From positions 1-18,636 of the forward strand of contig PHCM01000003.1 in assembly GCA_002842255.1 (NCBI GenBank): a DNA stretch of 18,636 nt, in the 5' to 3' direction. Positions 418 through 18,345 of this stretch are shown here, in pieces. The translations under genes were made by a program, and so were the position numbers. Position 1 is the first letter of the stretch, and each line of letters begins with the position of its first letter. Under the pieces are notes generated by a model that worked only from the letters and a program-made list of their open reading frames with translations, made no database searches and was not told the DNA's origin. Origin of the DNA: Betaproteobacteria bacterium HGW-Betaproteobacteria-2. GTDB lineage: Bacteria; Pseudomonadota; Gammaproteobacteria; Burkholderiales; Methylophilaceae.

Positions 418-478
418 TCGCAACCAATCTTGGAAACCAACTAGAGTAAAATGCCAATTTTAGTCTATCTGACCTGAC

Positions 479-928
479 ATGAGCATCGCCCAAAACAAAA
501 AAGCCTTTCACGACTACTTTATCGAGGAGAAATACGAAGCCGGTATTGTCCTTGAAGGGTGGGAGGTCAAGGCCATCCGCGACAACCGTGTGAACCTGAA
601 AGAGGCCTACGTCATCATCCAGCGTGGCGAGATCTACCTGATCGGCTGCCATATCACGCCCTTGGGGGCTGCATCCACCCATATCCGGCCGGATGCCATT
701 CGCACGCGTAAATTGCTGCTGCACAGCGAGGAAATTGCCAAGCTCATCGGCAAGGTGGAGCGTGCCGGCTATACGTTGGTGCCGCTGGATATGCATTATG
801 TGCGCGGGCGCATCAAGATTCAGATCGGGCTGGCCAAGGGCAAGAAACAGTACGACAAGCGTGACGCCGAGAAGGAACGAGACTGGGAACGTGAGCGCGG
901 CCGTATCATGCGCGCGCATAACAAATAG
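479..928 (+). CDS. smpB: SsrA-binding protein SmpB
   Basis: The 149-residue product binds tmRNA and delivers it to stalled ribosomes, where its C-terminal tail mimics an mRNA/anticodon element in the decoding site during trans-translation. Visible hallmarks are the N-terminal [18 protein letters not shown], the GWEVKAIR segment that begins the OB-fold core, the [10 protein letters not shown] strand, and the basic C-terminal tail ([20 protein letters not shown], about residues 120-140). Length is typical. The start is the ATG at 479, the first in the conserved frame and 61 bp from divergent ratA. Its RNA partner ssrA lies about 100 bp downstream on the same strand, so both components of the rescue system are neighbours, though ssrA appears to have its own promoter. 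A long antisense reading frame over this gene is a shadow. Confidence 0.98.
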
Positions 929-949
929 GGTGGTTGCGGCTTAATCGGG

Positions 950-955
950 TATAAT
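950..955 (+). promoter_or_regulatory. Candidate -10 box for ssrA
   Basis: A perfect TATAAT lies 22 nt after the smpB stop and about 75 nt before the mature tmRNA 5' end. A TTGCGG at 934-939 is too close (10 nt) to act as its -35, and the region at the right spacing is poor. A second option is TTTGGC (982-987) with TACGTT (1004-1009). ssrA needs strong independent transcription, so a promoter here is expected, but the choice between these is inference. Confidence 0.45.
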
Positions 956-962
956 TCTGCAT

Positions 963-995
963 ATGACTGAACTTTATGCAGTTTGGCTCAGTCAT
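963..995 (+). other. Stem-loop in the smpB-ssrA spacer
   Basis: ATGACTGA (963-970) is perfectly repeated in inverse orientation as TCAGTCAT (988-995), and ACT/AGT inside it (971-973 and 980-982) can extend the structure. There is no T-tract after it, so it is not a standard terminator. Its place between the TATAAT at 950 and the tmRNA 5' end would put it in the 5' leader of pre-tmRNA, which ribonucleases remove; it could also mark the smpB mRNA 3' end. Confidence 0.5.
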
Positions 996-1029
996 AGATT
1001 CGCTACGTTACAAACGTGAGAAACTTTCA

Positions 1030-1392
1030 GGGGCCGACCCGGTTTCGACGTGGGTTGCAAAGCAGTGCAGGGCATACCGAGGGTTCAGGTTTCCTCGTAA
1101 ATCCATCTGAAAAAGTATAGTCGCAAACGACGAAACTTACGCTCTAGCCGCTTAATCCCGGCTGGACGCTGCACCGAAGGGTCTCTCGGTCGGGTGGGCA
1201 ACCACAGCAGCGTCATATAGAGAGACTCGTGTTGTATCGGGTTACTTGATACAACATTAAATCCAAGGTGACTCGCTTCACATTCGCTTGCTCGTTGGTG
1301 GATGTGCGGTTAAATCAAACAACACAGCTAAGTATGTAGAACTGTCTGTGGAGGACTTACGGACGCGGGTTCGATTCCCGCCGGCTCCACCA
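1030..1392 (+). ncRNA. ssrA: Transfer-messenger RNA (tmRNA, one-piece)
   Basis: tmRNA rescues stalled ribosomes by acting first as an alanyl-tRNA and then as a short message. The 5' end GGGGCCGACC with GGTTTCGACG just after it, and the 3' tail GGTTCGATTCCCGCCGGCTCCACCA (T-arm, acceptor strand, encoded CCA), are diagnostic. The 5' GGGGCCG can pair with 3' CGGCTCC through seven pairs including one G-U, which sets the ends at 1030 and 1392 (363 nt, normal for a one-piece tmRNA). The tag frame is 1123-1155 and encodes ANDETYALAA then TAA; with the charged alanine the appended tag is A-ANDETYALAA, ending in the LAA degron recognised by ClpXP-type proteases. The adjacent SmpB gene supplies its partner. 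Confidence 0.97.
1123..1155 (+). other. tmRNA tag-peptide reading frame (ANDETYALAA)
   Basis: The resume codon is GCA at 1123, after the conserved AGTATAGTC context that matches the E. coli GTAGTC region. Codons read A-N-D-E-T-Y-A-L-A-A then TAA at 1153-1155. The ALAA end is the universal protease signal; ANDE at the start is the usual proteobacterial form, and the T-Y at positions 5-6 differs from the E. coli N-Y. Confidence 0.95.
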
Positions 1393-1397
1393 AACAC

Positions 1398-1430
1398 AAA
1401 AGGGTCACTCGAAAGAGTGGCCCTTTTTGT
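1398..1430 (+). terminator. Rho-independent terminator of ssrA
   Basis: An arm AAGGGTCACTC (1400-1410) pairs with GAGTGGCCCTT (1415-1425) around a GAAA tetraloop at 1411-1414, with one G-U pair, followed by a T-run at 1424-1428. It begins within ten bases of the tmRNA CCA end, the usual position. Confidence 0.93.
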
Positions 1431-1447
1431 TTGATCAATACGGGAAG

Positions 1448-1555
1448 CGAACCCGCAGCGGATTCGACTAGCCGACCATGTGTCGGCTGGACGCGGAACG
1501 CAGTGCAGCGGGCCTGAGTGCAGGCCGAGGTTTTCGCGGAAGCAACGCGAAAGCC
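1448..1555 (+). repeat. Cluster of four stem-loops downstream of ssrA
   Basis: Four inverted repeats stand in a row: CGAACCCGC/GCGGATTCG (1448-1466, one mismatch), AGCCGAC/GTCGGCT (1470-1488, five-base loop), GGCCTG/CAGGCC (1511-1526, loop AGTG) and GGTTTTCGCG/CGCGAAAGCC (1529-1555, one G-T pair, seven-base loop). The last ends five bases before a copy of the tmRNA 3' tail. Short matches to tmRNA itself are also present, such as CGGCTGGACGC at both 1159 and 1484. No protein gene fits; minus-strand frames here are artefacts of this structure. It may be an attachment-site scar, a repetitive element or a structured transcript; sequence alone does not decide. Confidence 0.7.
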
Positions 1556-1561
1556 GAGCAA

Positions 1562-1578
1562 TCCCGCCGGCTCCACCA
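1562..1578 (+). repeat. Duplicate of the tmRNA 3' end (att-like direct repeat)
   Basis: TCCCGCCGGCTCCACCA at 1562-1578 repeats 1376-1392 exactly (17 bp). Duplication of a tmRNA or tRNA 3' tail is the classic footprint of tyrosine-recombinase integration, and ssrA 3' ends are well-known targets. The upstream bases differ (the T-arm GGTTCGAT is absent), so this is only the tail, not a second tmRNA. No integrase lies between the copies, which are only 186 bp apart, and no third copy is seen up to 11718. Confidence 0.75.
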
Positions 1579-1611
1579 TTTACCAGCATCACCAAGTATC
1601 AAGAAATGCAG

Positions 1612-1650
1612 AAAACCCTTGTTAATCCTAGTGATTCACGGGTTTTTTGT
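1612..1650 (+). terminator. Terminator-like hairpin after the duplicated tmRNA tail
   Basis: AAAACCC (1612-1618) pairs with GGGTTTT (1640-1646), with an inner AATC/GATT stem (1624-1627 and 1633-1636), followed by more T residues to 1652. It reads as a bidirectional intrinsic terminator and may insulate the downstream operon from ssrA-side transcription. Confidence 0.6.
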
Positions 1651-1680
1651 TTTATTCATCACTACCTAATCACCACAATC

Positions 1681-1728
1681 GGGGTAAGTCACGCTTTAAA
1701 TGGGGTAAGGAGCGCCTTGCTTACCCCA
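1681..1728 (+). repeat. GGGGTAAG motifs: two direct copies and one inverted
   Basis: GGGGTAAG occurs at 1681-1688 and 1702-1709, and its inverse CTTACCCC at 1720-1727; the last two form a perfect 9-bp inverted repeat TGGGGTAAG/CTTACCCCA with a ten-base loop. Short repeated sites this close to an att-like duplication could be arm-type binding sites of a lost integrase, or an operator. No nearby gene for such a protein is present. Confidence 0.5.
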
Positions 1729-1790
1729 TTCCTGCCAACGAGACCTGGGCAGTCAGCAATGTTAATTTGTAGAAACGACGTTACTTTTAT

Positions 1791-1820
1791 TTGACATGCG
1801 TAATCTGGCGGCGCTAAGAT
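1791..1820 (+). promoter_or_regulatory. Sigma70-type promoter for the RM operon
   Basis: A consensus TTGACA at 1791-1796 is followed after 18 nt by TAAGAT at 1815-1820 (four of six matches). Transcription would start near 1827, giving a leader of about 33 nt before the first ATG at 1860. No other promoter of this quality is seen in the operon. No clear Shine-Dalgarno precedes the ATG. Confidence 0.6.
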
Positions 1821-1859
1821 GGTGTCAATTATTATTGTCGTAATGGCGTTTTTGCAAAT

Positions 1860-2441
1860 ATGAACCTTGGCGAGCTGGCTGAAGTACAGATGGGCTACCC
1901 CTTCCGGTCGCGCCTTGAGCACGACCCGCAGGGTGATGTCGCCGTGATCCAGATGAAGGACATCGACGACGCCAACCACCTGCACGCCGAAGAGGCGATC
2001 CGGGTAACCCTGCCCAAGGGCAAGACGCACCACCTGCTGTGCGCGGGCGACCTGCTGTTCCGTTCTCGGGGCCGCAGCAATGGTGCGGCTCGGGTGCTGG
2101 AAGGCATCGGCCCGGCCGTGCTATCGGCGCCGATGCTGCTGATCCGGCCCCGCAACGTGCTGCCCGCCTACCTGTGCTGGTACATCAACGCGCCGGCCAC
2201 CCAGGCCCAGCTGGCAGCGCTGGCCGAGGGCACTTCGGTACGGATGATCAGCGCCGAAGCGCTGAAGGCGCTGGAAGTTCCGCTGCCTTCGCAGGCCACG
2301 CAGCAACGCATCGCGCAGGCCGCCGACCTGGCCGAACAAGAACAAACACTGCTGGCCCGCATTGCCACCTTGCGCCAGCGCCTGACCATGCACATGCTGA
2401 TGAAGCTTGCCCACCCATCCCGAGAAAGGGCCAACCCATGA
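1860..2441 (+). CDS. Half-size type I restriction specificity subunit (HsdS-like)
   Basis: The 193-residue product has one target-recognition domain (about 1-140, opening NLGELAEVQMGYPFRSRLEH) followed by one conserved spacer helix (VPLPSQATQQRIAQAADLAE, then a coiled-coil to about 182). Full HsdS proteins are about 400 residues with two such units, so this is a half-S. Known half-S proteins can dimerise to read a palindromic site, or pair with another S fragment. It is not an obvious broken gene: the start is the first ATG after a good promoter, the fold unit is complete, and no remainder of a second unit lies upstream or downstream. It overlaps hsdM by the ATGA at 2438-2441, implying coupled translation. 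A full-size hsdS lies three genes on, so this copy could be an alternative specificity or a modulator; both are inference. Confidence 0.85.
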   Translation: MNLGELAEVQMGYPFRSRLEHDPQGDVAVIQMKDIDDANHLHAEEAIRVTLPKGKTHHLLCAGDLLFRSRGRSNGAARVLEGIGPAVLSAPMLLIRPRNVLPAYLCWYINAPATQAQLAALAEGTSVRMISAEALKALEVPLPSQATQQRIAQAADLAEQEQTLLARIATLRQRLTMHMLMKLAHPSRERANP

Positions 2442-4012
2442 CCGACCAGCTCACCCAACAAGACGTCAACACCACCACCTGGGCCGCTTGCGACACCTTT
2501 CGTGGCGTCGTTGATCCGGCGCAGTACAAGGATTACATCCTGGTGATGCTGTTCCTGAAATACATCAGCGACCAGTGGGCCGACCATTACGCCGCGTACA
2601 AGAAGGAGTACGGAGACAACGAGGAGCGCATCCGCCGCAAGCTGGAGCGCGAGCGCTTCATCCTGCCCTACGTCGAGTTCAAGGACGAAAAGACCGGCGA
2701 GGTCACCGACCGCTTCCTGGCCGATTTCCACGCCCTCTACGAGCGGCGCAAGGCGGCCAACCTTGGCGAGCTGATCAACATTGTGCTCGACCATATCGAG
2801 GAGGCCAACAAGGCCAAACTCGAAGGCGTGTTCCGCAACATCGACTTTAACTCCGAGGCCAACCTAGGCAAAACCAAGGACCGCAACCGCCGCCTCGAAA
2901 ATCTGCTGGGTGATTTTGCCAAGCTCGATCTGCGCCCCTCGCGCGTGTCCGAGGACGTGATCGGCGATACCTATATCTACCTGATCGAGCGCTTCGCCTC
3001 CGACGCCGGCAAGAAGGCCGGCGAGTTCTACACGCCCAAACAGGTATCGAAGCTGCTGGCGCAGCTGGCCGCCCCCAAACCCGGCGACCGCATCTGCGAC
3101 CCCACCTGCGGCGCCGGTGGCTTGCTAGTCGAAGCCGCAGCACTCGTAGAGGCCAAGGGTAGCCCCGGAAATCCAAACAAAGATTTCGCCCTGTTCGGCC
3201 AGGAGGTTAACGGCAGCACCTGGGCGCTGGCCCGCATGAACATGTTCCTGCATGGCAAGGATGCCGCCCGCATCGAGTGGGGCGACACCCTCAACAGCCC
3301 AGCGCTGGTCGAGGCTGACCGCCTGATGCGCTTCAACGTCGTAGTAGCCAACCCACCTTTCAGCCTCGACAAGTGGGGCGCCAGTGAAGCCGAGGCCGAC
3401 CGTTACAACCGCTTCTGGCGCGGCGTGCCCCCCAAGTCCAAGGGCGACTACGCATTTGTCACCCACATGATCGAAACCGCGCTACCGCAGGAAGGCCGCG
3501 TGGCGGTCGTGGTGCCGCACGGCGTGCTGTTCAGGGGCGGCGCCGAAGGCCGTATTCGACGCGCCCTGATCGAGGAGAACCTGCTCGATGCCGTCATCGG
3601 CTTGCCGGGCAACCTGTTTCCGACCACCTCGATCCCGGTCGCCATCCTGGTGTTCGACCGCGCCCGCGAAAAGGGCGGCCCCCGCGAGGACTGCCAGGAG
3701 GTGCTGTTTATCGACGCCAGCCGCGATTACCAGAGTGGCAAGAATCAGAACGCCCTGCTCAACGAGCACATGACCCGCATCCTGGAAACCTTCCGCGCCC
3801 GGCAGCCGGTGGACAAGTACGCCCATGTCGCCAGCCTGCAGGAAATCGCCGACAACGACTTCAACCTCAACATCCCGCGCTATGTGGACACCTTCGAGGA
3901 AGAGGAAGAGATCGACGTCGCCGCCGTCGAGCAGGAGATCGAGCGCTTGGAGGGGGAGCTGGTGGAAGTGCGGAAACGCATGAAGCAATACCTCAAGGAG
4001 CTGGGGGTATGA
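2438..4012 (+). CDS. hsdM: Type I restriction-modification DNA methyltransferase subunit (N6-adenine)
   Basis: This 524-residue product transfers a methyl group from S-adenosylmethionine to adenine N6 in the site chosen by HsdS, as part of an M2S1 methyltransferase or R2M2S1 restriction complex. Visible are the N-terminal helical HsdM domain (about 1-170, with TFRGVVDPAQYKDYILVMLF), the GEFYTP segment (195-200), SAM-binding motif I DPTCGAGG (221-228), and catalytic motif IV NPPF (305-308). The C-terminus is a charged coiled-coil (about 470-520) likely to contact HsdS. The start is the ATG at 2438, with GAGAAAGGG just upstream and overlap with the half-S stop; the frame stays open upstream to 2039, but that part is a shadow of the half-S. 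It couples by ATGA overlap to the RhuM gene at 4009. Confidence 0.97.
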   Translation: MTDQLTQQDVNTTTWAACDTFRGVVDPAQYKDYILVMLFLKYISDQWADHYAAYKKEYGDNEERIRRKLERERFILPYVEFKDEKTGEVTDRFLADFHALYERRKAANLGELINIVLDHIEEANKAKLEGVFRNIDFNSEANLGKTKDRNRRLENLLGDFAKLDLRPSRVSEDVIGDTYIYLIERFASDAGKKAGEFYTPKQVSKLLAQLAAPKPGDRICDPTCGAGGLLVEAAALVEAKGSPGNPNKDFALFGQEVNGSTWALARMNMFLHGKDAARIEWGDTLNSPALVEADRLMRFNVVVANPPFSLDKWGASEAEADRYNRFWRGVPPKSKGDYAFVTHMIETALPQEGRVAVVVPHGVLFRGGAEGRIRRALIEENLLDAVIGLPGNLFPTTSIPVAILVFDRAREKGGPREDCQEVLFIDASRDYQSGKNQNALLNEHMTRILETFRARQPVDKYAHVASLQEIADNDFNLNIPRYVDTFEEEEEIDVAAVEQEIERLEGELVEVRKRMKQYLKELGV

Positions 4013-5079
4013 AGAAGAAGCAGGAAGCCTCGCTTGTTCGTTCATCGGCGGCGGAGTACCTGACTTTTGTCGCCGCCAGCGGCCAGGGGGGTGTTGAGGC
4101 TGTTTATGCGGACGAAAGCATCTGGCTGACTCAGAAGATGCTGGCTCAGTTGTACGATGTGAACGTGCGCACGGTGAATGAGCATCTAAAAAAAATCTTT
4201 GCCGACAGCGAGCTGCAGGAAGATTCAGTTATCCGGAAATTCCGGATAACTGCCTCCGACGGCAAGAACTACAACACCCAGCATTACAAGCTGCCCGCCA
4301 TCATTGCCGTGGGCTACAAGGTCAACTCCGAGCGTGCGGTGCAGTTCCGCAAGTGGGCCACCGGCATCATCGAGCAGTTCACCATCAAGGCTTACGTGAT
4401 GGATGACGAGCGCATCAAAAGCGGCGGCTCCGTCCTGAGCGACAAGTACTTCGAAGAGCAGCTCCAGCGTATCCGCGAGATCCGCCTCTCGGAACGCAAG
4501 TTCTACCAGAAGATCACCGACCTCTACGCCATGGCGATCGACTACGACGTGACGGCCCAGGCCACCAAGCGTTTTTTCGCCACCGTGCAGAACAAGCTGC
4601 ACTGGGCGATTCATGGGCAGACGGCGGCCGAAGTCGTCTACCACCGCTCGGATGCCGAAAAGGCGAACATGGGGCTGACCACATGGAAGGACGCGCCCAG
4701 CGGCAAGATTCAGAAATTCGACGTGGCCATCGCCAAGAACTACCTGACCGAGGTTGAGATGGCGCAACTCTCCCGCCTCGTCAACGCCTATCTGGACGTG
4801 GCCGAGGACATGGCCCAGCGCAAGATCCCCATGACCATGCAGGATTGGGAAACCCGCCTGAATCGCTTCATCGAGGCCACTGACCGCAGCGTGTTGCAGG
4901 ATGCGGGCAAGGTGACGGCGGAAATCGCCAAGGCACACGCTGAGAGCGAATTCGAAAAATACCGCATCGTGCAGGACCGGCTATTCGAGTCGGACTTTGA
5001 TCGGATGGTGAAAGCGGTGGGGAAGCTGGAGCAGACCGAGCGGGCTCTGGAAGGCAAAGGGCGGGGGAAGAAGAAGTGA
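4009..5079 (+). CDS. RhuM family protein in RM operon
   Basis: The 356-residue product matches the RhuM family, named for a Salmonella pathogenicity-island gene of unknown biochemical role and often found beside restriction systems. An N-terminal segment WLTQKMLAQLYDVNVRTVNE (about 39-58) reads as a winged-helix DNA-binding domain, then the family core GYKVNSERAVQFRKWATGII (102-121). The central part has the ATKRFFATVQNKLHWAIHG block, similar to Fic/DOC-like death-on-curing proteins, but I do not see the HPFxxGNG active site. The C-terminus is helical and ends in a lysine-rich tail. AAGGAG at 3995-4000 precedes the ATG, which overlaps the hsdM stop; the gene ends overlapping the hsdS GTG. Placement between hsdM and hsdS suggests a co-regulated accessory, perhaps a regulator or second-line toxin; neither is shown by sequence. 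A 27-bp palindrome lies within codons 73-82. Confidence 0.88.
   Translation: MKKKQEASLVRSSAAEYLTFVAASGQGGVEAVYADESIWLTQKMLAQLYDVNVRTVNEHLKKIFADSELQEDSVIRKFRITASDGKNYNTQHYKLPAIIAVGYKVNSERAVQFRKWATGIIEQFTIKAYVMDDERIKSGGSVLSDKYFEEQLQRIREIRLSERKFYQKITDLYAMAIDYDVTAQATKRFFATVQNKLHWAIHGQTAAEVVYHRSDAEKANMGLTTWKDAPSGKIQKFDVAIAKNYLTEVEMAQLSRLVNAYLDVAEDMAQRKIPMTMQDWETRLNRFIEATDRSVLQDAGKVTAEIAKAHAESEFEKYRIVQDRLFESDFDRMVKAVGKLEQTERALEGKGRGKKK
4226..4252 (+). repeat. Perfect 27-bp palindrome inside the RhuM gene
   Basis: CAGTTATCCGGAA (4226-4238) and TTCCGGATAACTG (4240-4252) are exact reverse complements around a single A at 4239. It encodes SVIRKFRITA, just after the putative DNA-binding domain. Thirteen-base arms without mismatch are unlikely by chance in coding DNA. 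It could be an internal operator, an mRNA hairpin, or a relic of a small inserted repeat. Confidence 0.9.
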
Positions 5080-6278
5080 CTCACGCAATTGCAAAACACC
5101 GGCTCGGGGACATCACACGTTTTGTGTCTGGTGGAACACCGAGCAAACAAGACCCACGCTATTGGGGTGGCGACACGCCCTGGGTATCGGCGAAAGACTT
5201 GAAGTCGATGCACATAGGCGCATCCATCGACACCCTTAGCGCCTCCGGGCGTGATGCTGCATCTCTTGTACCGCGAGGGACTTTGCTAATCCTCGTGAGG
5301 GGTATGACTCTTTTCAAGAGCATTCCTATCGGCATAGCGTCAAGGGAGTTAGCCATAAACCAAGACCTCAAAGGCTTGATCACCAATAAAAATGTATCGC
5401 CAGAATTTCTTGCGTACAGTCTCTTGACCAAGGAGAGTGAACTCCTGCAAATGGTCGAGGCCGCCGGCCATGGCACGGGACGGCTGGATACAGATGCGCT
5501 GAAAGATGTGTTGGTTCGGGTTCCGAGTCTTCCTGAACAGCATCAGATTGCGAGCGCAATCGCGACGTGGGACGCCTCCATCCAGAAAACCGAGCAACTG
5601 ATCGCTGCGAAGGAGCGGCACTACAACCACGAACTGTCGCGCCTGATCAGCCGGGGCCAGCACCCGCACACCCATGTTGGCAACTTTGCCGAGGAAGTCT
5701 CCACTCGCAATCGCGGCGGCAACGAAGCCCGCGTGCTGAGCGTGACCAACTCACGCGGATTTGTGCTGCCGGAAGATCAGTTCGAGCGCCGCGTTGCCAG
5801 CGCGGATCTGTCCAATTACAAGGTCGTGCGCCGTGGGCAGTACGCCTACAACCCGTCGCGCATCAACGTCGGCTCCATCGCCCGCCTCGACGGCTGGAAT
5901 GATGGCGTGCTCAGCCCTATGTATGTCGTGTTCCGACTCGACGAGAACAAGGCCAACTCGGACTATTTCCTGCACTGGCTAAATTCCCATGAAGCCAGAC
6001 AGCGCATCAAGAACAGCGCCCAGGGCAGCGTCCGCGAAACCGTGTCCTTCTCGGAGTTCGCCGCCATCACGATTCCGCTGCCGGATAAAAACACGCAAAC
6101 CGCCATCGCCCGCTACCTCAACGCCCTGCGTGAGGAGATCAACCTGCTCGGCCAATCCGTGGCGGCGCTGAAGGCCCAGAAGCGCGGCCTGATGCAGAAG
6201 CTGCTCACCGGCCAGTGGCGGCTGAGGGTGCGCCATTCCGAAGCAATAACCCAACCAGAGGAGGCCCACCATGGCTAA
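5076..6278 (+). CDS. hsdS: Type I restriction specificity subunit S (full size)
   Basis: The 400-residue product determines the DNA target of the methyltransferase and nuclease. It shows the usual two-unit architecture: recognition domain 1 (about 1-150, GDITRFVSGGTPSKQDPRYW, then WVSAKDLK), a central conserved helix (SLPEQHQIASAIATWDASIQ, 151-170), recognition domain 2 (about 200-330), and a C-terminal conserved helix (IPLPDKNTQTAIARYLNALR, 333-352) ending AQKRGLMQKLLTGQWRLR. Translation starts at a GTG at 5076 that overlaps the RhuM stop (GTGA), implying coupling. The first recognition domain is visibly more AT-rich than the rest of the gene and its neighbours, which suggests domain exchange. 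The end overlaps the DUF2188 gene by 8 bp. The two recognition domains should give an asymmetric bipartite target. Confidence 0.96.
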   Translation: MTHAIAKHRLGDITRFVSGGTPSKQDPRYWGGDTPWVSAKDLKSMHIGASIDTLSASGRDAASLVPRGTLLILVRGMTLFKSIPIGIASRELAINQDLKGLITNKNVSPEFLAYSLLTKESELLQMVEAAGHGTGRLDTDALKDVLVRVPSLPEQHQIASAIATWDASIQKTEQLIAAKERHYNHELSRLISRGQHPHTHVGNFAEEVSTRNRGGNEARVLSVTNSRGFVLPEDQFERRVASADLSNYKVVRRGQYAYNPSRINVGSIARLDGWNDGVLSPMYVVFRLDENKANSDYFLHWLNSHEARQRIKNSAQGSVRETVSFSEFAAITIPLPDKNTQTAIARYLNALREEINLLGQSVAALKAQKRGLMQKLLTGQWRLRVRHSEAITQPEEAHHG

Positions 6279-6501
6279 AGATAAGAACTACTGGACCCAG
6301 CAACGTCCCGATGGCAAATGGGAAAGTAAACGTGAGGGTAGTGAGCGCGCTTCAAAGGTGACGGAAACCCAAGCGGAGGCATGGGCCTATTCCAAATCCA
6401 AGGCAAAAGAATCAGGCGGCGAAGCTTTCCTCAAAGGGCGCGACGACAAAATCCGTGAACGCAACACCTACGGCAAAGATCCGTATCCGCCGAAGGGGTA
6501 G
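6271..6501 (+). CDS. DUF2188 family small protein
   Basis: The 76-residue product carries the DUF2188 pattern: an aromatic/basic start (NYWTQQRPDGKWESKREGSE), then TETQAEAWAYSKSKAKESGG, and the closing GRDDKIRERNTYGKDPYPPK. The family's function is unknown; it is usually a small soluble domain, and homologues occur in mobile and defence contexts. A strong GAGGAGG at 6258-6264 precedes the ATG at 6271, which lies inside the 3' end of hsdS. It is followed after 3 bp by the DUF4917 gene, so the two may be a transferred pair. I cannot assign an activity. Confidence 0.85.
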   Translation: MAKDKNYWTQQRPDGKWESKREGSERASKVTETQAEAWAYSKSKAKESGGEAFLKGRDDKIRERNTYGKDPYPPKG

Positions 6502-6504
6502 CGC

Positions 6505-7575
6505 ATGACCAACATCCTCACATTTGATGACGCTATCCAACACTCGGTGCGGTTCAAGAAACGGCATCTTCTGCTTGGCAACGGGTTTAGCATCGCCTGC
6601 CGCCCGAAGATTTTCACTTACGGCTCACTCTTCGAGCAGGCTGACTTCTCGTCTGCCCCGAGGCTTCCAGACGTATTCAAAGCCGTCGGCACAACCGACT
6701 TTGAGCACGTCATCAAGATGCTTGAAGATGCATCGCGCGTTGTTCCTGTCTATTCGAAGGATTCGGTTGAAGCTGCAAAGCAGATGGCAGTCGATGCAGA
6801 GGCGTTGAAAGATATTCTGATTCAGACCGTAGCGAATAATCACCCGAACATCCCAAACGATATCGAGGATGGACAGTTCTGGGCGTGCCGGAGGTTCCTG
6901 TCACATTTCCTGGGCGATTCGAACAAAGACGGCAAGGTCTATACCCTCAACTATGACCTGCTTCTTTACTGGACACTGATGCATGAAGACATGGGCTTTA
7001 GCGACCCTATAGAACTTGCCGCCAACGACGGATTCGGCCGCGATGAAGATACCGAGCCGGAATATGTGAACTGGATGGGCGAGAGCGGCGCACATGGGCA
7101 GCGGGTTCATTATCTTCATGGCGCGCTTCACCTGTTTGACGCGGGCGCCGAGCTGCAGAAGTACACGTGGGTGAATACGGGCAAGCCGTTACTGGAGCAG
7201 GCGCGAGAGGCAATGGGAACAGACAAGTTTCCATTGTTCGTCGCTGAAGGCAAGAGTAATCAGAAACTCGCAAAAATCAAGCATAGCGCATACCTGCACC
7301 ATTCTTACAAAAGCTTCTCGTCGCAGATGGCGCAGCGCAATGATGCTTTATTTATTTTCGGCCACAGCCTCGCAGACAACGATAAGCATATCCTGAAAAA
7401 AATCGCACGCGGCAAGATTCCTCAAGTCTATGTAGGGCTCTACGGTGACCCTGAAAGCCGGGGGAATCAGCATATCCGCAATGCCGCTGCCGCCTTGGCA
7501 AATTCTCGCGATGACCGGGCCACACTAGACGTTGCTTTCTTCGATGCCGCGTCAGCCCAAGTCTGGGAGGCTTAG
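6505..7575 (+). CDS. DUF4917 family protein with SIR2-like motifs
   Basis: The 356-residue product resembles DUF4917. Its spaced motifs look like SIR2-type nucleotide-binding proteins: LLLGNGFSIA (22-31, compare the Rossmann-like GxGxS loop), TLNYDLLLYW (147-156, compare the TTNYD element), a HYLHGALHLF block (202-211, compare the LHG of SIR2-like effectors) and FIFGHSLADNDKHI (283-296, compare the GySxxD element). SIR2-domain proteins in several antiphage systems deplete NAD+. Membership of DUF4917 in that superfamily is my inference from these motifs, and activity is unproven. No signal peptide or membrane segment is seen. The gene sits 3 bp after DUF2188 and its TAG (7573-7575) is 2 bp from the hsdR ATG, so it is co-transcribed. 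It is less GC-rich than hsdM and hsdR, suggesting separate origin as cargo. Confidence 0.8.
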   Translation: MTNILTFDDAIQHSVRFKKRHLLLGNGFSIACRPKIFTYGSLFEQADFSSAPRLPDVFKAVGTTDFEHVIKMLEDASRVVPVYSKDSVEAAKQMAVDAEALKDILIQTVANNHPNIPNDIEDGQFWACRRFLSHFLGDSNKDGKVYTLNYDLLLYWTLMHEDMGFSDPIELAANDGFGRDEDTEPEYVNWMGESGAHGQRVHYLHGALHLFDAGAELQKYTWVNTGKPLLEQAREAMGTDKFPLFVAEGKSNQKLAKIKHSAYLHHSYKSFSSQMAQRNDALFIFGHSLADNDKHILKKIARGKIPQVYVGLYGDPESRGNQHIRNAAAALANSRDDRATLDVAFFDAASAQVWEA

Positions 7576-7577
7576 TG

Positions 7578-10500
7578 ATGGACAGTTTCCGCTTCGACGA
7601 GAAATATCTCTCCCAAATTCCTGCCCTGCAACTGTTGATCAACTTGGGCTACCACTACCTGACGCCCGCCGAGGCGATGGCCGCGCGCGGCGGAAAGGCC
7701 GGCAATGTGCTGCTGGAGGAGGTGCTGCGCGATCAGTTGAAGAAGCTGAACCGCATCCAGCACAAGGGCGGCAGCTACCTCTTCAGCGAGGAGAATATCC
7801 AGAGCGCCATCCAGCGTTTGAAGAACGTGAAGTACGACGGCCTGCTCAAGACCAATGAGGCAGTGTATGACCTGCTGACTTTGGGTGTGGCGTTGGAGCA
7901 GTCTATCGAAGGCGACCTGAAGAGCTTCACGCTGAATTATGTGGACTGGCGCAACCCGGCCAACAACGTCTATCACGTGGCGGCCGAGTTCGCCGTGGAG
8001 CGTACCCGCAGCGTCGAGACTTGCCGGCCGGACGTGGTGCTGTTCGTCAACGGCATCCCCTTCGCGGTGATCGAGTGCAAATCGCCCAAGGTCGAGGTGG
8101 CCCAGGCCATTTCGCAGACCATCCGCAACCAGCGCGATGAGTATATCCCGCGCCTGTTTACCTATGTGCAGACGGTGTTGGCGGTGAACAAGAATGAGGC
8201 CCGCTATGCCACCACCGGCACCCCGGCCAAGTTCTGGTCGAAGTGGAAGGAGGACGTGGCGGATGTTGAGTTGGCCCCGCTGCTGGAGCGCTCGTTGCCG
8301 GACTCAGTGAAGGCATCGTTGTTCGACCTTGCTTTTGCCGAGCTGGGCGTGCGCGAGGAGATTGCGCCCTATCTGGTGGGCCGACAGGTGACCGAGCAGG
8401 ACCGCACGCTCTATGCCTTGTGCCGCCCGGAGCGCCTTTTGGAGATGGCCTGGGCGTTTACGGTTTTCGACGGCGGCGTTCGCAAGATTGCGCGCTACCA
8501 GCAGGTGTTCGCCATTCAGGAGGTACTGCGGCGGGTCCGGCAGGTAGAGCCTGCCCTCACCCCCGACCCCTCTCCCGCAAGCGGGCGAGGGGAGTTTGCG
8601 GGCAAACGCCGGGGCGGTATCGTCTGGCATACGCAGGGTTCGGGCAAGTCGCTGACCATGGTGATGCTGGCGCGTGCGCTGGCGCTGGAGCCGGCGATCC
8701 GCAATCCGCGCATCGTGCTGGTGACCGACCGGGTGGATCTGGACAAGCAGCTCGGCAACACCTTTGCCGCCTGCGGCTTGTCGCCTGACCGGGCTGAGAG
8801 TGGCCGTCATCTGGTGGAACTGGTGTCCGACGGCAAGGCGCACATCGTCACCACGCTGGTGCACAAGTTTGACAAGGCGCTGGCTTACAGGAAGTTCAGC
8901 GATGCCTCGCCCGACATCTTCGTGCTGGTGGACGAAACCCAGCGCACCCAGCTGGGCGGTTACTCGGCGCGCATGCGCCAGATGTTCCCCAATGCCTGCT
9001 ACATCGGCTTCACCGGCACGCCACTCTTGACCCGTGAGAAGAGCGATGTGGCCAAGTTCGGCGGCGTGATTCACACTTATGCCATCGACCAGGCGGTGGC
9101 CGATGGCGCCATCGTGCCGCTGCTCTACGAAGGGCGCATGGTGGAACTGGAACAGAACCAGGCCGCCATCGACATCTGGTTCGAACGCCACACCCAGGGG
9201 CTGACCGACCAGCAGAAGGCCGACCTGAAGAAGAAATACGCCCGCGCCGAGATGCTGAACAAGGCCGAGCAGGTGATCTACATGCGCGCCTTCGACATCA
9301 GCGAGCATTACCGCCAGAACTGGCAGGGTACCGGCTTCAAGGCGCAACTGGTGGCGCCCAACAAGGCGGCGGCGCTGCGCTACAAGGCGTTTCTGGACGA
9401 GTTGGGCGCGGTCACCAGCGAGGTGATCATCTCGCCGCCCGACGAGCGCGAGGGTTTCGATGAGATCGACGCCGAGGAATCCACCGATGCGGTGGTGGCT
9501 TTCTGGCAGCGCATGATGAAGCGTTACGGCTCGGAGGAGGATTACAACAAGCAGATAGTCAACGCCTTCAAGTTCGGCGACGAGCCGGAGGTCCTGATCG
9601 TGGTGGACAAACTGCTGACCGGCTTCGACGCGCCGCGCAACACGGTGCTCTATCTGGCGCGGCGGCTCAAGGATCATTCCCTGCTGCAGGCGATTGCCCG
9701 GGTGAACCGCCTATACGAGGACGACTCCGGCAGCAAGGCCAAGGACTTCGGCTACATCATCGACTACGTGGGTGTGCTGGGCGAGCTGGATCAGGCACTG
9801 ACCACCTACAGCGCCCTGGAAGGATTTGAGGCGGCGGATCTCGAAGGTGCGCTGACCTCGATCCATGAAGAAACCAAGGCGCTGCCGCAGCGCCATGCCG
9901 AGCTGTGGGACCTGTTCAAGACGGTGAAGAACCGCCAGGACGAGGAAGCTTTTGAGCAACTGTTGGCTGACGAGAAATTGCGCGCCGATTTCTACGAGCG
10001 GCTGACGGCCTACGCCAAGACCCTGGCCATTGCGCTGTCCAGCGAACGCTTCATCATCGAGACGCCCGAGCAGAAGCTGCGCGCCTACAAGAACGACCTC
10101 AAGCGCTTCGTCAATCTGAGGGCAGCGGTGAAGCTGCGCTATGCCGAGTCAGTGGACTACCGCGATTTTGAGCCGCGTATCCAGAAGCTGCTGGATACGC
10201 ATATCTCGGCCTCCGAGGTGGTGCAGCTGAACGCGCCGGTGAACATCTTCGATGAGGCCGCTTTCCAGAAGGTGGTCGAAGAGCAAGGCGTGGGTAGCGA
10301 GAAGAACCTCGGGGCCAAGGCCGACATGATCGCCCACGCCACCAGGCGCGCCATCAACGAGCGGCTGGAGCAGGACCCGGCCTTCTACGAAAAATTCTCC
10401 AAGCTGATTCAGCAGGCCATCGACGACTATCGCGCCAAGCGCCTGTCCGATCTGGAATACCTGCAGCGGGTCACCGAGATCAAGGACGCTGTGGTTTCGC

Positions 10501-10838
10501 GCAAGGGCGATGACTTGCCACCGGCACTGAACAGCGATGCCGATGCGGCTGCCGTCTATGGCTTGTTGCGCCCCTTCGTGGCGAACCACCTCAGCGACGA
10601 CGAGCGGGCTCAGAACACTGCTGCCGAAGCCGCTATGGCGGTGTGGGATATCTTTCGCCGAAACCGCAAGGTGGGCTACTGGGATGACCTCGATGCCCAG
10701 CGCAGGACCATGAACCAGATCGACGACTACCTTTACGACGAGGTCAAGGGCGTACGCGGCATCGCGCTGTCCACCGAAGAGATGGACGAGATCATCGAGA
10801 AAACCATGCAACTCGCTCGCCACCGGATGGTAGGGTGA
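7578..10838 (+). CDS. hsdR: Type I restriction endonuclease subunit R
   Basis: The 1086-residue product translocates DNA using ATP and cuts it at a distance when the target is unmethylated. Nuclease motif: RPD (150-152) and ECK (166-168), the PD-(D/E)xK type. Motor: Walker A HTQGSGKS (351-358), motif II VDETQ (451-455, where DEAH is more usual), motif III GFTGTP (477-482), VDKLLTGFD (676-684) and QAIARVNR (704-711, motif VI). A helical C-terminal region binds M/S. I chose the ATG at 7578 over an adjoining GTG at 7575, giving the usual MDSFRFDE start; GGAGG at 7566-7570 fits it. Residues about 326-339 (LTPDPSPASGRGE) come from a palindromic repeat inserted in frame just before Walker A. The gene is the largest of the operon and ends next to the peptidase gene. 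Confidence 0.97.
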   Translation: MDSFRFDEKYLSQIPALQLLINLGYHYLTPAEAMAARGGKAGNVLLEEVLRDQLKKLNRIQHKGGSYLFSEENIQSAIQRLKNVKYDGLLKTNEAVYDLLTLGVALEQSIEGDLKSFTLNYVDWRNPANNVYHVAAEFAVERTRSVETCRPDVVLFVNGIPFAVIECKSPKVEVAQAISQTIRNQRDEYIPRLFTYVQTVLAVNKNEARYATTGTPAKFWSKWKEDVADVELAPLLERSLPDSVKASLFDLAFAELGVREEIAPYLVGRQVTEQDRTLYALCRPERLLEMAWAFTVFDGGVRKIARYQQVFAIQEVLRRVRQVEPALTPDPSPASGRGEFAGKRRGGIVWHTQGSGKSLTMVMLARALALEPAIRNPRIVLVTDRVDLDKQLGNTFAACGLSPDRAESGRHLVELVSDGKAHIVTTLVHKFDKALAYRKFSDASPDIFVLVDETQRTQLGGYSARMRQMFPNACYIGFTGTPLLTREKSDVAKFGGVIHTYAIDQAVADGAIVPLLYEGRMVELEQNQAAIDIWFERHTQGLTDQQKADLKKKYARAEMLNKAEQVIYMRAFDISEHYRQNWQGTGFKAQLVAPNKAAALRYKAFLDELGAVTSEVIISPPDEREGFDEIDAEESTDAVVAFWQRMMKRYGSEEDYNKQIVNAFKFGDEPEVLIVVDKLLTGFDAPRNTVLYLARRLKDHSLLQAIARVNRLYEDDSGSKAKDFGYIIDYVGVLGELDQALTTYSALEGFEAADLEGALTSIHEETKALPQRHAELWDLFKTVKNRQDEEAFEQLLADEKLRADFYERLTAYAKTLAIALSSERFIIETPEQKLRAYKNDLKRFVNLRAAVKLRYAESVDYRDFEPRIQKLLDTHISASEVVQLNAPVNIFDEAAFQKVVEEQGVGSEKNLGAKADMIAHATRRAINERLEQDPAFYEKFSKLIQQAIDDYRAKRLSDLEYLQRVTEIKDAVVSRKGDDLPPALNSDADAAAVYGLLRPFVANHLSDDERAQNTAAEAAMAVWDIFRRNRKVGYWDDLDAQRRTMNQIDDYLYDEVKGVRGIALSTEEMDEIIEKTMQLARHRMVG
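8554..8593 (+). repeat. In-frame REP-like palindromic repeat inside hsdR
   Basis: CCCTCACCCCCGACCCCTCT at 8554 runs into a hairpin with arms 8567-8578 and 8581-8592, twelve pairs with one mismatch around AA. This C-rich leader plus CCCTCTCCCGC/GCGGGCGAGGG palindrome is a recurrent intergenic element in many proteobacteria. Here it is translated as LTPDPSPASGRGE, and the helicase motifs continue in frame after it, so it appears tolerated in a surface loop. No second copy was noticed in this window. Confidence 0.8.
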
Positions 10839-10843
10839 AGACG

Positions 10844-11545
10844 ATGACCGGAACGCTGACCTATGGCACCGACACGATCCGCTACGAGGTGCACTTTCTG
10901 GCCTCGCGGCAGACCCTGGCCATCGAGGTCCACCCCGACAGCCGCGTGCTGGTGCGAGCGCCCGTCGATTGCCCCGAGGCACTGATTGCGGAGCGGGTGC
11001 AGAAACGGGCTGCATGGATCAGTCGGCAACTGGCCGAGTTCGAGCGTTACCGGCCCCGCACGCCGGCAAGGCAGTATGTCAACGGGGAATCGCATCTCTA
11101 TCTCGGCCGGCAGTACCGGCTAAAGCTGATCTCGGGGCTGTCAGCAAGCGTGAAACTGACGCGCGGCCAGCTTCTGGTCATGCTGCCCGGCGAGCCAGAG
11201 CCAGAGCGCGTCAAGTCATTGCTGCACCGCTGGTATCTCGACCGTGCACGAGCCGTATTTACTGAGGTCCTGGACGCCAGCCTGCTCCACTTCAAAGGCG
11301 TCGAGCAACCGCGTCTGATCGTGCGCGCCATGCAATCTCGCTGGGGAAGCCTGTCTCGCGCCGGCTCCATGACATTGAATGTTAACCTGGTCCGCGCGCC
11401 CCGCGCCTGCATCGAGTACGTGGTGACCCACGAGCTTTGTCACACCAAACACCGCGACCACGATGCACGATTCTTCAGGCTGCTTGGACAGGTAATGCCG
11501 GACTGGGAACAACGCAAGCAGCGACTGGAAGCGGCCCTGCTGTGA
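10844..11545 (+). CDS. YgjP/SprT-like M48-type zinc metallopeptidase
   Basis: The 233-residue product belongs to the YgjP-like (DUF45) group. The zinc site is visible as HELCH (196-200) followed by the distal H206 in HRDHDARFF, and the flanking RWGSLSRAGSMTLNVNLVRA block (167-186) is characteristic of the family. It should be soluble; no signal peptide is seen. Homologues are frequently found directly after hsdR, but the substrate is unknown. The start is uncertain: a GTG at 10835 overlaps the hsdR stop (GTGA), while the ATG at 10844 has AGGGTGAAG upstream and gives the usual MTGTLTYG opening, so I prefer the ATG. It is the last gene of the RM operon; a weak AGGGTGCA/TGTGCCCT hairpin follows without a T-tract. 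Confidence 0.9.
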   Translation: MTGTLTYGTDTIRYEVHFLASRQTLAIEVHPDSRVLVRAPVDCPEALIAERVQKRAAWISRQLAEFERYRPRTPARQYVNGESHLYLGRQYRLKLISGLSASVKLTRGQLLVMLPGEPEPERVKSLLHRWYLDRARAVFTEVLDASLLHFKGVEQPRLIVRAMQSRWGSLSRAGSMTLNVNLVRAPRACIEYVVTHELCHTKHRDHDARFFRLLGQVMPDWEQRKQRLEAALL

Positions 11546-11718
11546 GGGTGCAGCACGGATGTGCCCTGACAGATGGTGCCCCGCATGATAAACATGTGCT
11601 GTAGCATTGAGGGCTGCAGCTCAGATGATTGTTGCGGGGTTGGGGTGGCTGTCAGCTCTGAAATGAATAAACGACACCGGGCAGTGTGGTTCTTGATGAT
11701 AGGTGGGATTCTGACGAT

Positions 11719-12687
11719 ATGACTTTACCGGTAATTGCGATTTTGTTCGGCCTGATGCTGCTGGTGTGGAGCGCCGACCGCTTCGTCGAGGGTGCTGCGT
11801 TCACTGCACGACACTTTGGCATGCCATCCCTGCTGATCGGCATGGTGATCGTTGGCTTTGGAACATCAGCGCCGGAAATGGCGGTGTCGGCACTGGCTGC
11901 GCTGCAAGGCAATCCCGGCATCGCACTTGGTAACGCCTATGGTTCCAATATCACCAATATTGCGCTGATCATTGGTCTGACCGCGCTCATCAGTCCGATC
12001 GCAGTCCATTCGCAGGTGTTGCGCAAGGAACTGCCAATATTACTCGCCATTACAGCGCTGGCCGCATGGCAGCTGTGGGACGGGGAAATCAGCAGAATGG
12101 ATGCGGTCGTTCTGCTCGTCGTGTTCGCCGGCCTGATGACCTGGAGCATTTACGAAGGCATGCGGAAGAAAACCGATGCACTGGGCGATGAAATCGAGCA
12201 GGAACTTGTCACCCATGCCATGACGCTGCGCTGGGCCATTATCTGGTTGGTGATCGGCCTGCTGTTGCTGGTGGTCAGTTCGCGCCTGCTGGTCTGGGGT
12301 GCAGTCGAGATTGCGCAAGCCTTTGGTGTCAGTGATCTGATCATTGGCCTGACCATTGTCGCCATCGGTACTTCACTGCCGGAACTTGCATCCTCGATCA
12401 TCGCCGCGCGCAAGGGCGAGCACGATATCGCACTGGGCAACATTCTCGGATCCAACCTGTTCAATACGCTGGCGGTGGTCGGTATCGCCGGCATGATTTC
12501 CCCGATGGTGGTCGAGCCGGCAGTCCTCAGCCGCGATGTGATGGTCATGGCCATCCTCACCGTATTGCTATTCATCTTCGGTTATGGATTCCGCAGTATG
12601 GGCCGCATCAACAGGGTGGAAGCTGTAGTCTTGCTTGCGGCCTACATCGGCTATACCACCTATCTGATCACTACGGTCTTTCTTTAA
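11719..12687 (+). CDS. YrbG-type Na+/Ca2+ exchanger (CaCA family)
   Basis: This 322-residue inner-membrane protein should exchange Ca2+ for Na+ (K+-dependent or independent is not readable). The duplicated alpha repeats are clear: GFGTSAPE (46-53) with GNAYGSNITN (71-80), and AIGTSLPE (215-222) with GNILGSNLFN (240-249); the E residues in the SxPE motifs coordinate the cation. About ten hydrophobic segments are split by a charged loop (RKKTDALGDEIEQE, about 149-162). Length is normal for bacterial YrbG-like proteins. The ATG at 11719 gives the standard MTLPVIAILFGLMLLVWSAD; the frame extends to a GTG at 11686 but without family support. AGGTGGG lies upstream at 11701-11707. It stands alone, 173 bp from the RM operon and 119 bp from DUF190, and marks the return to housekeeping cation genes. 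Confidence 0.95.
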   Translation: MTLPVIAILFGLMLLVWSADRFVEGAAFTARHFGMPSLLIGMVIVGFGTSAPEMAVSALAALQGNPGIALGNAYGSNITNIALIIGLTALISPIAVHSQVLRKELPILLAITALAAWQLWDGEISRMDAVVLLVVFAGLMTWSIYEGMRKKTDALGDEIEQELVTHAMTLRWAIIWLVIGLLLLVVSSRLLVWGAVEIAQAFGVSDLIIGLTIVAIGTSLPELASSIIAARKGEHDIALGNILGSNLFNTLAVVGIAGMISPMVVEPAVLSRDVMVMAILTVLLFIFGYGFRSMGRINRVEAVVLLAAYIGYTTYLITTVFL

Positions 12688-12711
12688 GCTGACATCGCTC
12701 AACCGGCTTAT

Positions 12712-12735
12712 CTGTCCATGTGGCAGACATGGCAG
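12712..12735 (+). other. Stem-loop between the exchanger gene and the DUF190/Mrp operon
   Basis: CCATGT (12716-12721) pairs with ACATGG (12727-12732) and CTG (12712-12714) with CAG (12733-12735), leaving one unpaired T at 12715 and a loop GGCAG. No T-tract follows, so it is a weak terminator at best. It could be a regulatory element of either neighbour. Confidence 0.5.
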
Positions 12736-12806
12736 TAAACTTCGTAATGATTGGGCAGTCGGCAGAAACATAATCAGCATCTTGATTGGTTAATAAGGAG
12801 ATCGGC

Positions 12807-13124
12807 ATGCAAGGTTACCAGCTCACATTTTTCACGCAGCAGGATCGTCATCACGGCAATTTGCCATTGGGCGAATGGTTGTTGCAGGAGGCGCGCAGGC
12901 TGGGGTTGTCCGGCGCTACCTTGATTACTGCGGCTCAGGGCTTTGGTCATGACGGCAAGATGCATTCGGCGCGTTTCTTTGAACTGGCCGACCAGCCGGT
13001 CATGGTCATGATGGCTTTAAGTACAGCCGATATTGAGCGTCTGTTTCAGCGTTTGCGCGATGAGGAGGTGGACGTGTTTTATGTCAAGGTACCTATCGAA
13101 TTCGGTATGACCGGGGAATCGTGA
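12807..13124 (+). CDS. DUF190 domain protein, first gene of the Mrp operon
   Basis: The 105-residue product has the DUF190 features: YQLTFFTQQDRHHGNLPLGE (4-23), then LGLSGATLITAAQGFGHDGK and a final strand EVDVFYVKVPIEFG. DUF190 proteins are small and soluble, related to PII-like signalling folds, and are found beside ion transporters such as CrcB and Mrp; a regulatory role is plausible but not shown. AAGGAG at 12795-12800 fixes the ATG at 12807; the reading frame also extends to a TTG at 12786, which is not needed. It overlaps mrpE by GTGA at 13121-13124, so it is translated together with the antiporter genes. Confidence 0.9.
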   Translation: MQGYQLTFFTQQDRHHGNLPLGEWLLQEARRLGLSGATLITAAQGFGHDGKMHSARFFELADQPVMVMMALSTADIERLFQRLRDEEVDVFYVKVPIEFGMTGES

Positions 13125-18284: not shown

Positions 18285-18313
18285 GCAGAGCAGTATTTTG
18301 TTTCGTTGGACTG

Positions 18314-18345
18314 GCTATAGTCGGGTTGCAGCTAAAGTCGAGTTG
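18314..18345 (+). repeat. Tandem 15-bp direct repeat
   Basis: GCTATAGTCGGGTTG (18314-18328) and GCTAAAGTCGAGTTG (18331-18345) match at 13 of 15 positions and are spaced 17 bp apart. The pair sits in the 189-bp gap between the antiporter operon and the last gene, upstream of the latter, where a binding site for a dimeric or repeated regulator is possible. Confidence 0.6.

Follow-up and report, generated by a model that had tools for sequence, protein, structure and literature searches.

A probable five-gene type I restriction-modification chassis with exchangeable defense cargo and a half-size HsdS as its possible controller

The operon at positions 1860-11545 of contig PHCM01000003.1 from Betaproteobacteria bacterium HGW-Betaproteobacteria-2, in which the genes of a type I restriction-modification (RM) system are interspersed with others, raises the question of whether its eight genes form one obligate defense system or a conserved chassis which carries exchangeable genes. 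The stretch of DNA which was analyzed (positions 1 to 18,636 of the contig, hereafter the window) belongs to an assembly of 1.74 Mb in 333 contigs which is 74% complete. A preliminary description had favored an undescribed, layered multi-component system. Comparison with related loci in other genomes and plasmids (numbered L002, L003 and so on) leads us, with good confidence, to a different answer: a horizontally moving type I chassis of five genes with exchangeable defense cargo, whose first gene, S1, is a possible controller of the operon. Genes were named with Pfam, PADLOC and NCBIfam profiles as follows.

1860-2441, + strand: S1, half-size HsdS with a single recognition domain, chassis (Pfam Methylase_S, 8e-7)
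2438-4012, + strand: hsdM, N6-adenine methyltransferase subunit, chassis (N6_Mtase 2e-103, HsdM_N, TIGR00497, NPPF)
4009-5079, + strand: RhuM family protein, cargo slot 1, between M and S (Virulence_RhuM PF13310, 1e-105; PADLOC PDC-S05, 2e-149)
5076-6278, + strand: hsdS, full-length specificity subunit, chassis (Methylase_S, 2e-24)
6271-6501, + strand: DUF2188 small protein, cargo slot 2, between S and R (PF09954, 1e-18; PADLOC PDC-S16)
6505-7575, + strand: DUF4917, SIR2-like predicted NADase, cargo slot 2 (PF16263, 1e-74; PADLOC PDC-S21, 2e-126)
7575-10838, + strand: hsdR, restriction/translocase subunit, chassis (HSDR_N 1e-41, SWI2_SNF2, TIGR00348)
10835-11545, + strand: YgjP/SprT-like zinc peptidase, chassis (YgjP-like PF01863, 1e-58; HELCH)

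All eight open reading frames (ORFs) were confirmed on the + strand; neighbors in the order listed overlap by 4, 4, 4 and 8 bases, are then separated by a gap of 3 bases, and overlap again by 1 and 4 bases. The tight coupling described earlier therefore stands, and the eight genes are probably co-expressed from one promoter. RhuM lies between M and S and DUF4917 between S and R, as had been stated. Of four accessory genes said to separate the core RM genes, three do so (RhuM, DUF2188 and DUF4917), whereas the peptidase gene is at the edge and is a chassis gene. The naming of the core genes also held, except that the first gene is corrected to a half-size hsdS which is conserved as such.

HsdM scored 278 bits against TIGR00497 (cut-off 243) and HsdR 462 bits against TIGR00348 (cut-off 285), with both the nuclease domain and the superfamily 2 translocase present in HsdR. 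PF01420 matched two stretches of the hsdS product, which is thus a two-domain HsdS. Motifs were intact in HsdM (NPPF), HsdR (ECK and GSGKS), the peptidase (HELCH) and DUF4917 (GNGFS, TLNYD and LHG). By gene content the operon is a type I RM system with predicted modification and restriction activity. As a separate observation, hsdR contains at about 8550-8597 an in-frame insertion of about 15 residues, ALTPDPSPASGRGEF, just before Walker A; it is nearly identical in L054, is missing from L003, L053 and L055, and resembles a short dispersed repeat which was inserted in frame.

A scan of genome contigs for DUF4917 gave nine loci. Across the whole collection of loci, L008 and L028 share one contig, and L030 and L031 are two pieces in a single genome; each of these pairs was counted once. 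All eight genes were found in the same order in L002 (Rhodobacteraceae), L003 (Burkholderiales), L005 (Rhodobacter maris) and L006 (Paracoccus), and in L004 and L007 as far as the contigs extend; L008-L010 encode DUF4917 at 55%-57% identity, and nothing in them matched the hsd genes of the query panel. Because the same genes and order recur in four other lineages, the arrangement is not a chance one.

The chassis itself was found more widely. A search of plasmids with S1 gave 50 records, and 15 of the 30 loci listed were examined; the order S1-M-[slot 1]-S-[slot 2]-R-peptidase was present in all 15. Genomes were searched as well: S1 matched in 19 of 274 from the class, and an alignment of 19 S1 sequences matched in 19 of 398 from the phylum (the window's being among them both times; 12 and 18 loci fetched, respectively). 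The same-family loci had this order wherever their contigs extend far enough. The peptidase gene follows hsdR in 37/37 same-family chassis whose contig continues past hsdR, the window included; L078 and L081, in which S1 accompanies a distant type I system, had no match to the YgjP peptidase of the window family. From these conserved positions, with S1 first and the peptidase after hsdR, we conclude that the half-S and the peptidase are core members of the chassis family, which thus consists of five genes (S1, M, S, R and the zinc peptidase) with at least two cargo slots. L049 has an extra ORF of 102 residues between S1 and M. In L051 (13352-17599, a plasmid of Acetobacter pasteurianus) hsdS and hsdR are in unannotated pieces, with S1, hsdM and the peptidase gene open.

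The contents of the slots varied. In the 15 plasmid loci slot 2 held TIGR04141/DUF6119 (3), Shedu with HAD (2), Shedu with DUF3800, HAD, DUF3800, PD-(D/E)XK, Fic, NucS with Abi, or a hypothetical protein with a kinase, and was empty in L039 and L052; slot 1 held RhuM (4), PD-(D/E)XK (1) or a 78-residue hypothetical protein (1), was empty in eight and was ambiguous in L051. Cargo in the genome chassis included PDC-M07, PDC-S13, PDC-S20, OLD-like, SoFic, AbiD and DUF3800 genes. Position is not strict either: a DUF2188 protein is encoded between S1 and M in L057, and RhuM is in slot 2 rather than slot 1 in L061 and L076. Slot 2 of L060 contains, beside OLD-like and DUF3800 genes, an ORF of 363 residues in reverse orientation (9048-10136), which had no Pfam or PADLOC match. 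Immediately before S1, two Rhodobacterales plasmids with HsdR 97% identical (L034, 9867-11604; L035, 9884-11621) carry an AbiEi/AbiEii toxin-antitoxin pair.

Exchange of cargo was seen most directly between near-identical chassis. Six pairs have HsdR identities of 93%-95% (95% for L036/L002, L050/L005, L035/L006 and L034/L006, 94% for window/L054 and 93% for window/L053), and the slot-2 genes differ in all six: L036, like L048, has Shedu where L002 has DUF2188-DUF4917, L050 has HAD in contrast to L005, L034 and L035 have TIGR04141 and no RhuM in contrast to L006, and the window differs from L053 (PDC-M07AB) and L054 (DUF3800). Slot 2 is empty in the sister chassis L055. An obligate eight-part system is therefore unlikely, and that part of the preliminary description was not upheld; RhuM, DUF2188 and DUF4917 are already PADLOC candidates. 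Specificity genes are also exchanged, with hsdS 34%-63% identical among chassis whose HsdR is 85%-94% identical to that of the window. The idea that only S varies and the S1 recognition domain is fixed was rejected, as S1 is exchanged too, less often than S (52%-55% identity between chassis with R and M at 92%-97%).

Base composition also sets the DUF2188-DUF4917 cassette apart. Its guanine plus cytosine (GC) content is 0.53-0.54 vs. 0.58-0.66 in the other six genes, and its GC content at third codon positions is 0.57-0.62 (DUF2188, 0.57) compared with 0.82-0.84 in S1, M and R and 0.71-0.81 in S, RhuM and the peptidase gene. At four-fold degenerate sites L005 and L006 are 84% identical in DUF4917 and 76% in DUF2188 vs. 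67% in M, 63% in R and 54% in the peptidase gene, and this closer cassette is a sign of transfer. The same comparison between the window and L003 (cassette 50%, M and R 63%-68%, peptidase gene 35%) was uninformative on transfer. The window DUF4917 protein is 86%-89% identical to those of L002, L003, L005 and L006 at a four-fold-site identity of 26%-50%, which indicates strong purifying selection. The 87%-89% conservation of DUF4917 between the window and alphaproteobacteria was accordingly rejected as proof of a recent transfer: with four-fold sites 26%-49% identical, the conservation reflects constraint.

The AlphaFold2 model of DUF4917 (mean predicted local distance difference test score, pLDDT, 77) had as its best Foldseek match the SIR2 protein of SIR2-HerA (E 7.6e-10), with weaker matches to sirtuins and ThsA. 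The motifs GNGFS, TxNYD and LHG were kept in the window protein and 27 homologues (of 120 listed); N149 is present in at least 90%, and H205 in all, of these 28 aligned sequences, and we take this Asn and His to be the catalytic residues of the SIR2 active site. From this fold and the conserved motifs, depletion of nicotinamide adenine dinucleotide (NAD) is the likely activity of DUF4917, a predicted SIR2-like NADase. Sequence searches of the PDB with DUF4917, RhuM, DUF2188 and the peptidase gave no match. The window RhuM is 36%-47% identical to 14 others in one matrix, 62% to that of L057 and 56% to that of L067; it is 40%-44% identical to the RhuM proteins of its sister chassis L003, L053, L054 and L055, which are 66%-96% alike. 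A Bro-N domain was considered for the window RhuM and rejected, since Bro-N was seen in the slot-1 PDC-S13 protein of L053, which matches one RhuM model in its N-terminal region alone (9-126), a region left unmatched by the window RhuM (125-456).

Linkage of the cargo to RM genes in general, which the preliminary description proposed as a check, differed by family. Of 299 genomes sampled from the phylum, 10 had DUF4917, 46 DUF2188, 166 HSDR_N and 77 RhuM, which passed its cut-off in 75 of them. RhuM is often RM-linked: at least 20 of the places where it passed the cut-off have a listed HSDR_N match no more than 10 kb away, compared with one of 58 DUF2188 places, that of the window; as HSDR_N matches were listed down to about E 2e-21, both counts are lower bounds. 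Among 25 distinct DUF4917 loci, 13 were accompanied by a type I gene within the stretch examined and 12 were not, in a sample biased by six loci which entered as close relatives and with a query panel which a distant hsd gene could evade. Loci with no type I match include plasmids of Leptospira, Leisingera, E. coli and Bacillus; no RM gene was annotated in 21 kb stretches around DUF4917 in plasmids L043-L046, and in L046 the gene adjoins phage genes. Since it occurs both with and without type I genes, DUF4917 looks like an autonomous gene which type I operons also carry.

These results bear on two other explanations of the whole operon. In one, the RM genes need RhuM, DUF2188, DUF4917 and the peptidase as partners in an integrated layered system whose SIR2-like effector fires when restriction fails. 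The tight coupling of the genes in the window and the eight-gene order there and in L002, L003, L005 and L006, with RhuM in all five, would suit such a system, as would the published precedents of PrrC in EcoprrI (PMC12707154) and RhuM in RM loci (PMC3710099), as far as these are described in the excerpts available. We nevertheless consider it unlikely, given the sister chassis whose slot 2 is filled otherwise or empty (L039, L052 and L055), a DUF4917 gene which shares slot 2 with an Abi gene where neither RhuM nor DUF2188 is present (L058), the four plasmids with no annotated RM gene around DUF4917, and a window RhuM unlike the type common to L003, L053, L054 and L055. The cargo could alternatively consist of selfish hitch-hikers, toxin-like or mobile, which use the RM operon for expression and maintenance and confer no defense benefit; the atypical GC content of the cassette, its exchange between chassis, and the occurrence of DUF4917 away from RM genes and beside phage genes are what one would expect of them. 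Many slot genes, however, belong to known or candidate defense families (Shedu, Fic, AbiD, PDC-M07, PDC-S13, PDC-S20 and OLD-like), and DUF4917 is under strong purifying selection, so that this too seems improbable. Two observations count against our own preference for a mobile chassis with exchangeable cargo: all five loci with DUF2188, DUF4917 and a visible slot 1 carry RhuM as well, which leaves a functional link possible, and synonymous sites between the window and alphaproteobacteria are near saturation, so that they give no direction or date of transfer. The interpretation given in the preliminary description is thus partly supported.

The constant first gene raises a further question, that of what a half-size specificity subunit does in a system which has a complete one. 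The AlphaFold2 model of S1 (pLDDT 86) matched best the half-length S-like protein Esub1 (PDB 8VSR/8VSQ, E 7.7e-12, about 20% identity; known here from PDB names and titles), followed by HsdS structures, and has the HsdS fold with a long helix. Among 2124 candidates scored, 860 were S1 homologues (proteins of 0.55-1.75 times the S1 length), and the half-length protein is conserved, with invariant residues, as the first gene of the chassis. Its half length might suggest a decayed remnant of a full hsdS, an explanation which we rejected as very improbable for so conserved a family with its own operator-like sites.

Upstream of S1 a promoter and two operator-like sites were located.

1769-1787, + strand: operator-like site A, arms GTAGAAA and TTACTTT around CGACG (10/14 matches to GCAGTAA-N5-TTACTGC)
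1791-1820, + strand: sigma-70-like promoter TTGACA-18-TAAGAT, between sites A and B (consensus scan)
1837-1855, - strand: operator-like site B, an inverted copy of A just before the S1 start (GCAGTAA-N5-TTACTGC consensus)

Paired interrupted palindromes bracket the S1 promoter in many loci of this family, and in the window itself they are found by the consensus of its relatives only. Promoters like that of the window precede S1 in L054 and L003, and a weaker one in L053; the distance between the starts of sites A and B is 66-69 bases in the window, L053, L054, L003 and L055. The arms differ between lineages: some alphaproteobacteria have CTGTAG-N6-CTACAG twice, 58 bases apart, around TTGACA, and other S1 promoters have TTGCATCA-N7-TGATGCAA or TGCACCA-N7-TGGTGCA. 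LexA was considered for the CTGTA...TACAG sites. The LexA site has CTGT and ACAG at a spacing of 8, whereas here they are 9-10 apart, and other lineages have other arms.

As a test for a single palindrome was weak for single loci, a two-site test took its place, in which a pair of sites sharing one 7-base arm, with spacers of 5-7 bases and 40-90 bases apart, was scored to a maximum of 28 and compared with 60 dinucleotide shuffles per locus; the controls were 90 promoter regions taken from the same records but belonging to other ORFs. L064 (S1 off the contig end) and L082 (no start codon found) were excluded, and for L057 the start was placed at a codon which is not a start codon. In the first set of 31 loci, 18 scored at least 24 and 16 beat all 60 shuffles; in a second set of 17 new loci, for which the statistic had been settled in advance, the numbers were 9 and 4. 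No control promoter did either (0/90 in both cases). TTGAC was present between the sites in 19/27 loci (overlapping a site in two) vs. 11/90 controls. The consensus GCAGTAA-N5-TTACTGC, which was taken from L056/L057 and chosen with first-set sequences already seen, hit both sides of the promoter in 5/5 members of the window clade (p 0.0005-0.0035); for the window pair A and B p was 0.0035 (2000 shuffles), and 0/90 controls reached 10 at both sites.

Half-S genes were also found paired with an N6 methyltransferase of about 420 residues (L074, 12537-14410; L075, 2020-3899; L079, 2011-3844), with no match alongside to chassis S, R or peptidase (in 16 kb for L074 and L075). L074 has the two-site layout (score 25, beating all shuffles), L075 the same arms (score 23, p 0.15), and no paired site was seen in L079 (score 21). 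The L074 and L075 arms resemble those of L068, L071 and L072, though their M proteins are only 32%-43% identical to those of L071 and L072. Such pairs are a possible minimal S1-M module. In L081 (1997-12711) a half-S and a short methyltransferase directly precede another, distant type I system, in which an SMC-like ATPase separates S from R.

We infer from the adjacency and form of the sites, with about even confidence, that S1 is the operator-binding protein and that, with HsdM, it autoregulates this widespread operon family through the paired palindromes which bracket its own promoter. No gene other than S1 constantly adjoins the paired sites in the loci examined, and the four ORFs between ssrA and S1 in the window (63-114 codons, some on the opposite strand) had no Pfam match. 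Two short arms with a spacer of 5-7 bases suit a half-S dimer, and an engineered half-S enzyme is described in the available excerpts as recognizing the interrupted palindrome GAAN7TTC (PMC2877798). Across 25 operators (L068 and L081, with no M in the matrix, were not among them) the half-site covaried with S1 when M was controlled for (partial r 0.45, p 0.0005) and did not covary with M when S1 was controlled for (0.07, p 0.10). The other explanation which has to be weighed is that S1 acts solely as an additional specificity subunit, through which M methylates a second target, and that another regulator binds the sites. We hold this to be a possibility somewhat short of even. Its HsdS fold with a long helix and its occasional swapping between near-identical chassis would be expected of such a subunit, and the covariation with S1 becomes weak in a subset of 17 loci; a layout which persists in L074, whose M is 32%-43% identical to those of all compared loci except L075, counts against this explanation.

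Several points weigh against autoregulation by S1. In those 17 full-chassis loci the half-site covaries more with M or R, S1 and S being controlled for (r 0.67-0.69, p 0.001), than with S1 when the rest are controlled for (r 0.19, p 0.025), and not with S (-0.20), and since the site and the S1 gene are adjacent, linkage alone can yield either covariation. In the two-site test 13/31 loci of the first set and 8/17 of the second scored below 24, and the window itself failed in its symmetric form (22/28, p 0.39). Both the two-site statistic and the clade consensus were devised post hoc, so that p values are optimistic and the second set is the sole replication, and many of the loci are related, so that the site counts are not independent.

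A working scheme would be as follows. M and S would modify DNA, and M, S and R would restrict it, with the cargo as separate back-up defenses which, from the same promoter, would supply protection once restriction fails; DUF4917 would most likely deplete NAD upon phage sensing or restriction failure, and RhuM would be an effector. Upon entry into a naive cell the promoter would be free, and S1 and M would be made first; an S1 dimer, probably with HsdM, would then bind, and may methylate, both palindromes around its own promoter. Filled or methylated sites would lower expression before HsdR accumulates, and repression would persist once established. In known type I systems proteolysis acts on HsdR, as a title cited in PMC12255303 also states; here the peptidase probably targets HsdR or a different subunit, limiting self-damage as a possible second brake.

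Among known systems the closest in layout is the RRDM island (RptR-RMS-DarTG2-M48) of enteropathogenic E. coli, which, in the excerpts available, has DarTG2 between hsdS and hsdR and a metallopeptidase gene downstream and protects against phages; the hsdS-hsdR site is there termed a potential recombination hotspot (PMC12255303). The window shares with it the type I RM genes, a defense cassette between hsdS and hsdR, the downstream zinc metallopeptidase gene and probably a single promoter, which in RRDM is regulated. The regulator of RRDM, however, is a separate protein of 79 residues, RptR, acting on TAGCTA repeats (PMC12255303), whereas the window operon opens with a half-S; RptR and the M48 peptidase were set against the window proteins by description. 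Control of the RptR type was considered for the window; the TAGCTA site differs. PrrC, embedded in the type I locus EcoprrI and triggered upon inhibition of restriction, likewise resembles the window in having an effector inside the locus (PMC12707154), but PrrC is an anticodon nuclease, and by Pfam none of the eight window genes is one. The same excerpts call data on type I transcription scarce (PMC12707154), and RhuM in RM loci has been proposed as a toxin in a multilevel defense with RM and PrrC-like proteins (PMC3710099). The predicted DUF4917 fold is like that of SIR2 in SIR2-HerA (Nezha; PDB 8J4U, 8SU9) at about 14% sequence identity, but by Pfam no HerA is among the eight operon genes.

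The window RhuM, DUF2188 and DUF4917 proteins match PADLOC PDC-S05, PDC-S16 and PDC-S21, which are catalogued as single genes; PDCs are putative candidates from a guilt-by-embedding approach with a 2024 preprint by Payne et al. as source (PMC12988326), a preprint also cited in the excerpts of PMC12629846 and PMC12255303. In two literature listings, covering 30 of 4107 and 40 of 1377 matches and nearly all for the word rhum, no entry mentioned DUF4917 or DUF2188. Among the matches listed we found no description of the exact eight-gene set, and in those of separate searches we recognized none on a half-S regulator; a search for the name Esub1 found nothing relevant. The layered idea and the individual parts are thus already known, and new relative to the PADLOC and PDC material seen are the chassis slots, the exchange of cassettes and the half-S operator.

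Upstream of the operon are smpB and ssrA (tmRNA, 1030-1392), and a sodium/calcium-exchanger gene follows at 11686. The 3' end of ssrA, a classic island insertion point, is exactly repeated over 17 bases (1376-1392) 186 bases downstream at 1562-1578, in the manner of an attachment site; three matches occur in the window at up to 3 mismatches vs. 0.07 expected. The operon starts 281 bases past the second copy, and an integrase was looked for in the ORF list only.

Sister chassis with swapped cargo are natural experiments in which the effects of cargo can be separated from those of RM. Should S1 prove to be an autoregulator, an S1-methyltransferase pair on its own would represent the family in its ancestral or minimal form, and the recognition machinery which marks self DNA would also set the dose and order in which restriction and cargo are expressed; the paired sites offer a concrete and cheap test of how such an operon enters a new cell without cutting it.

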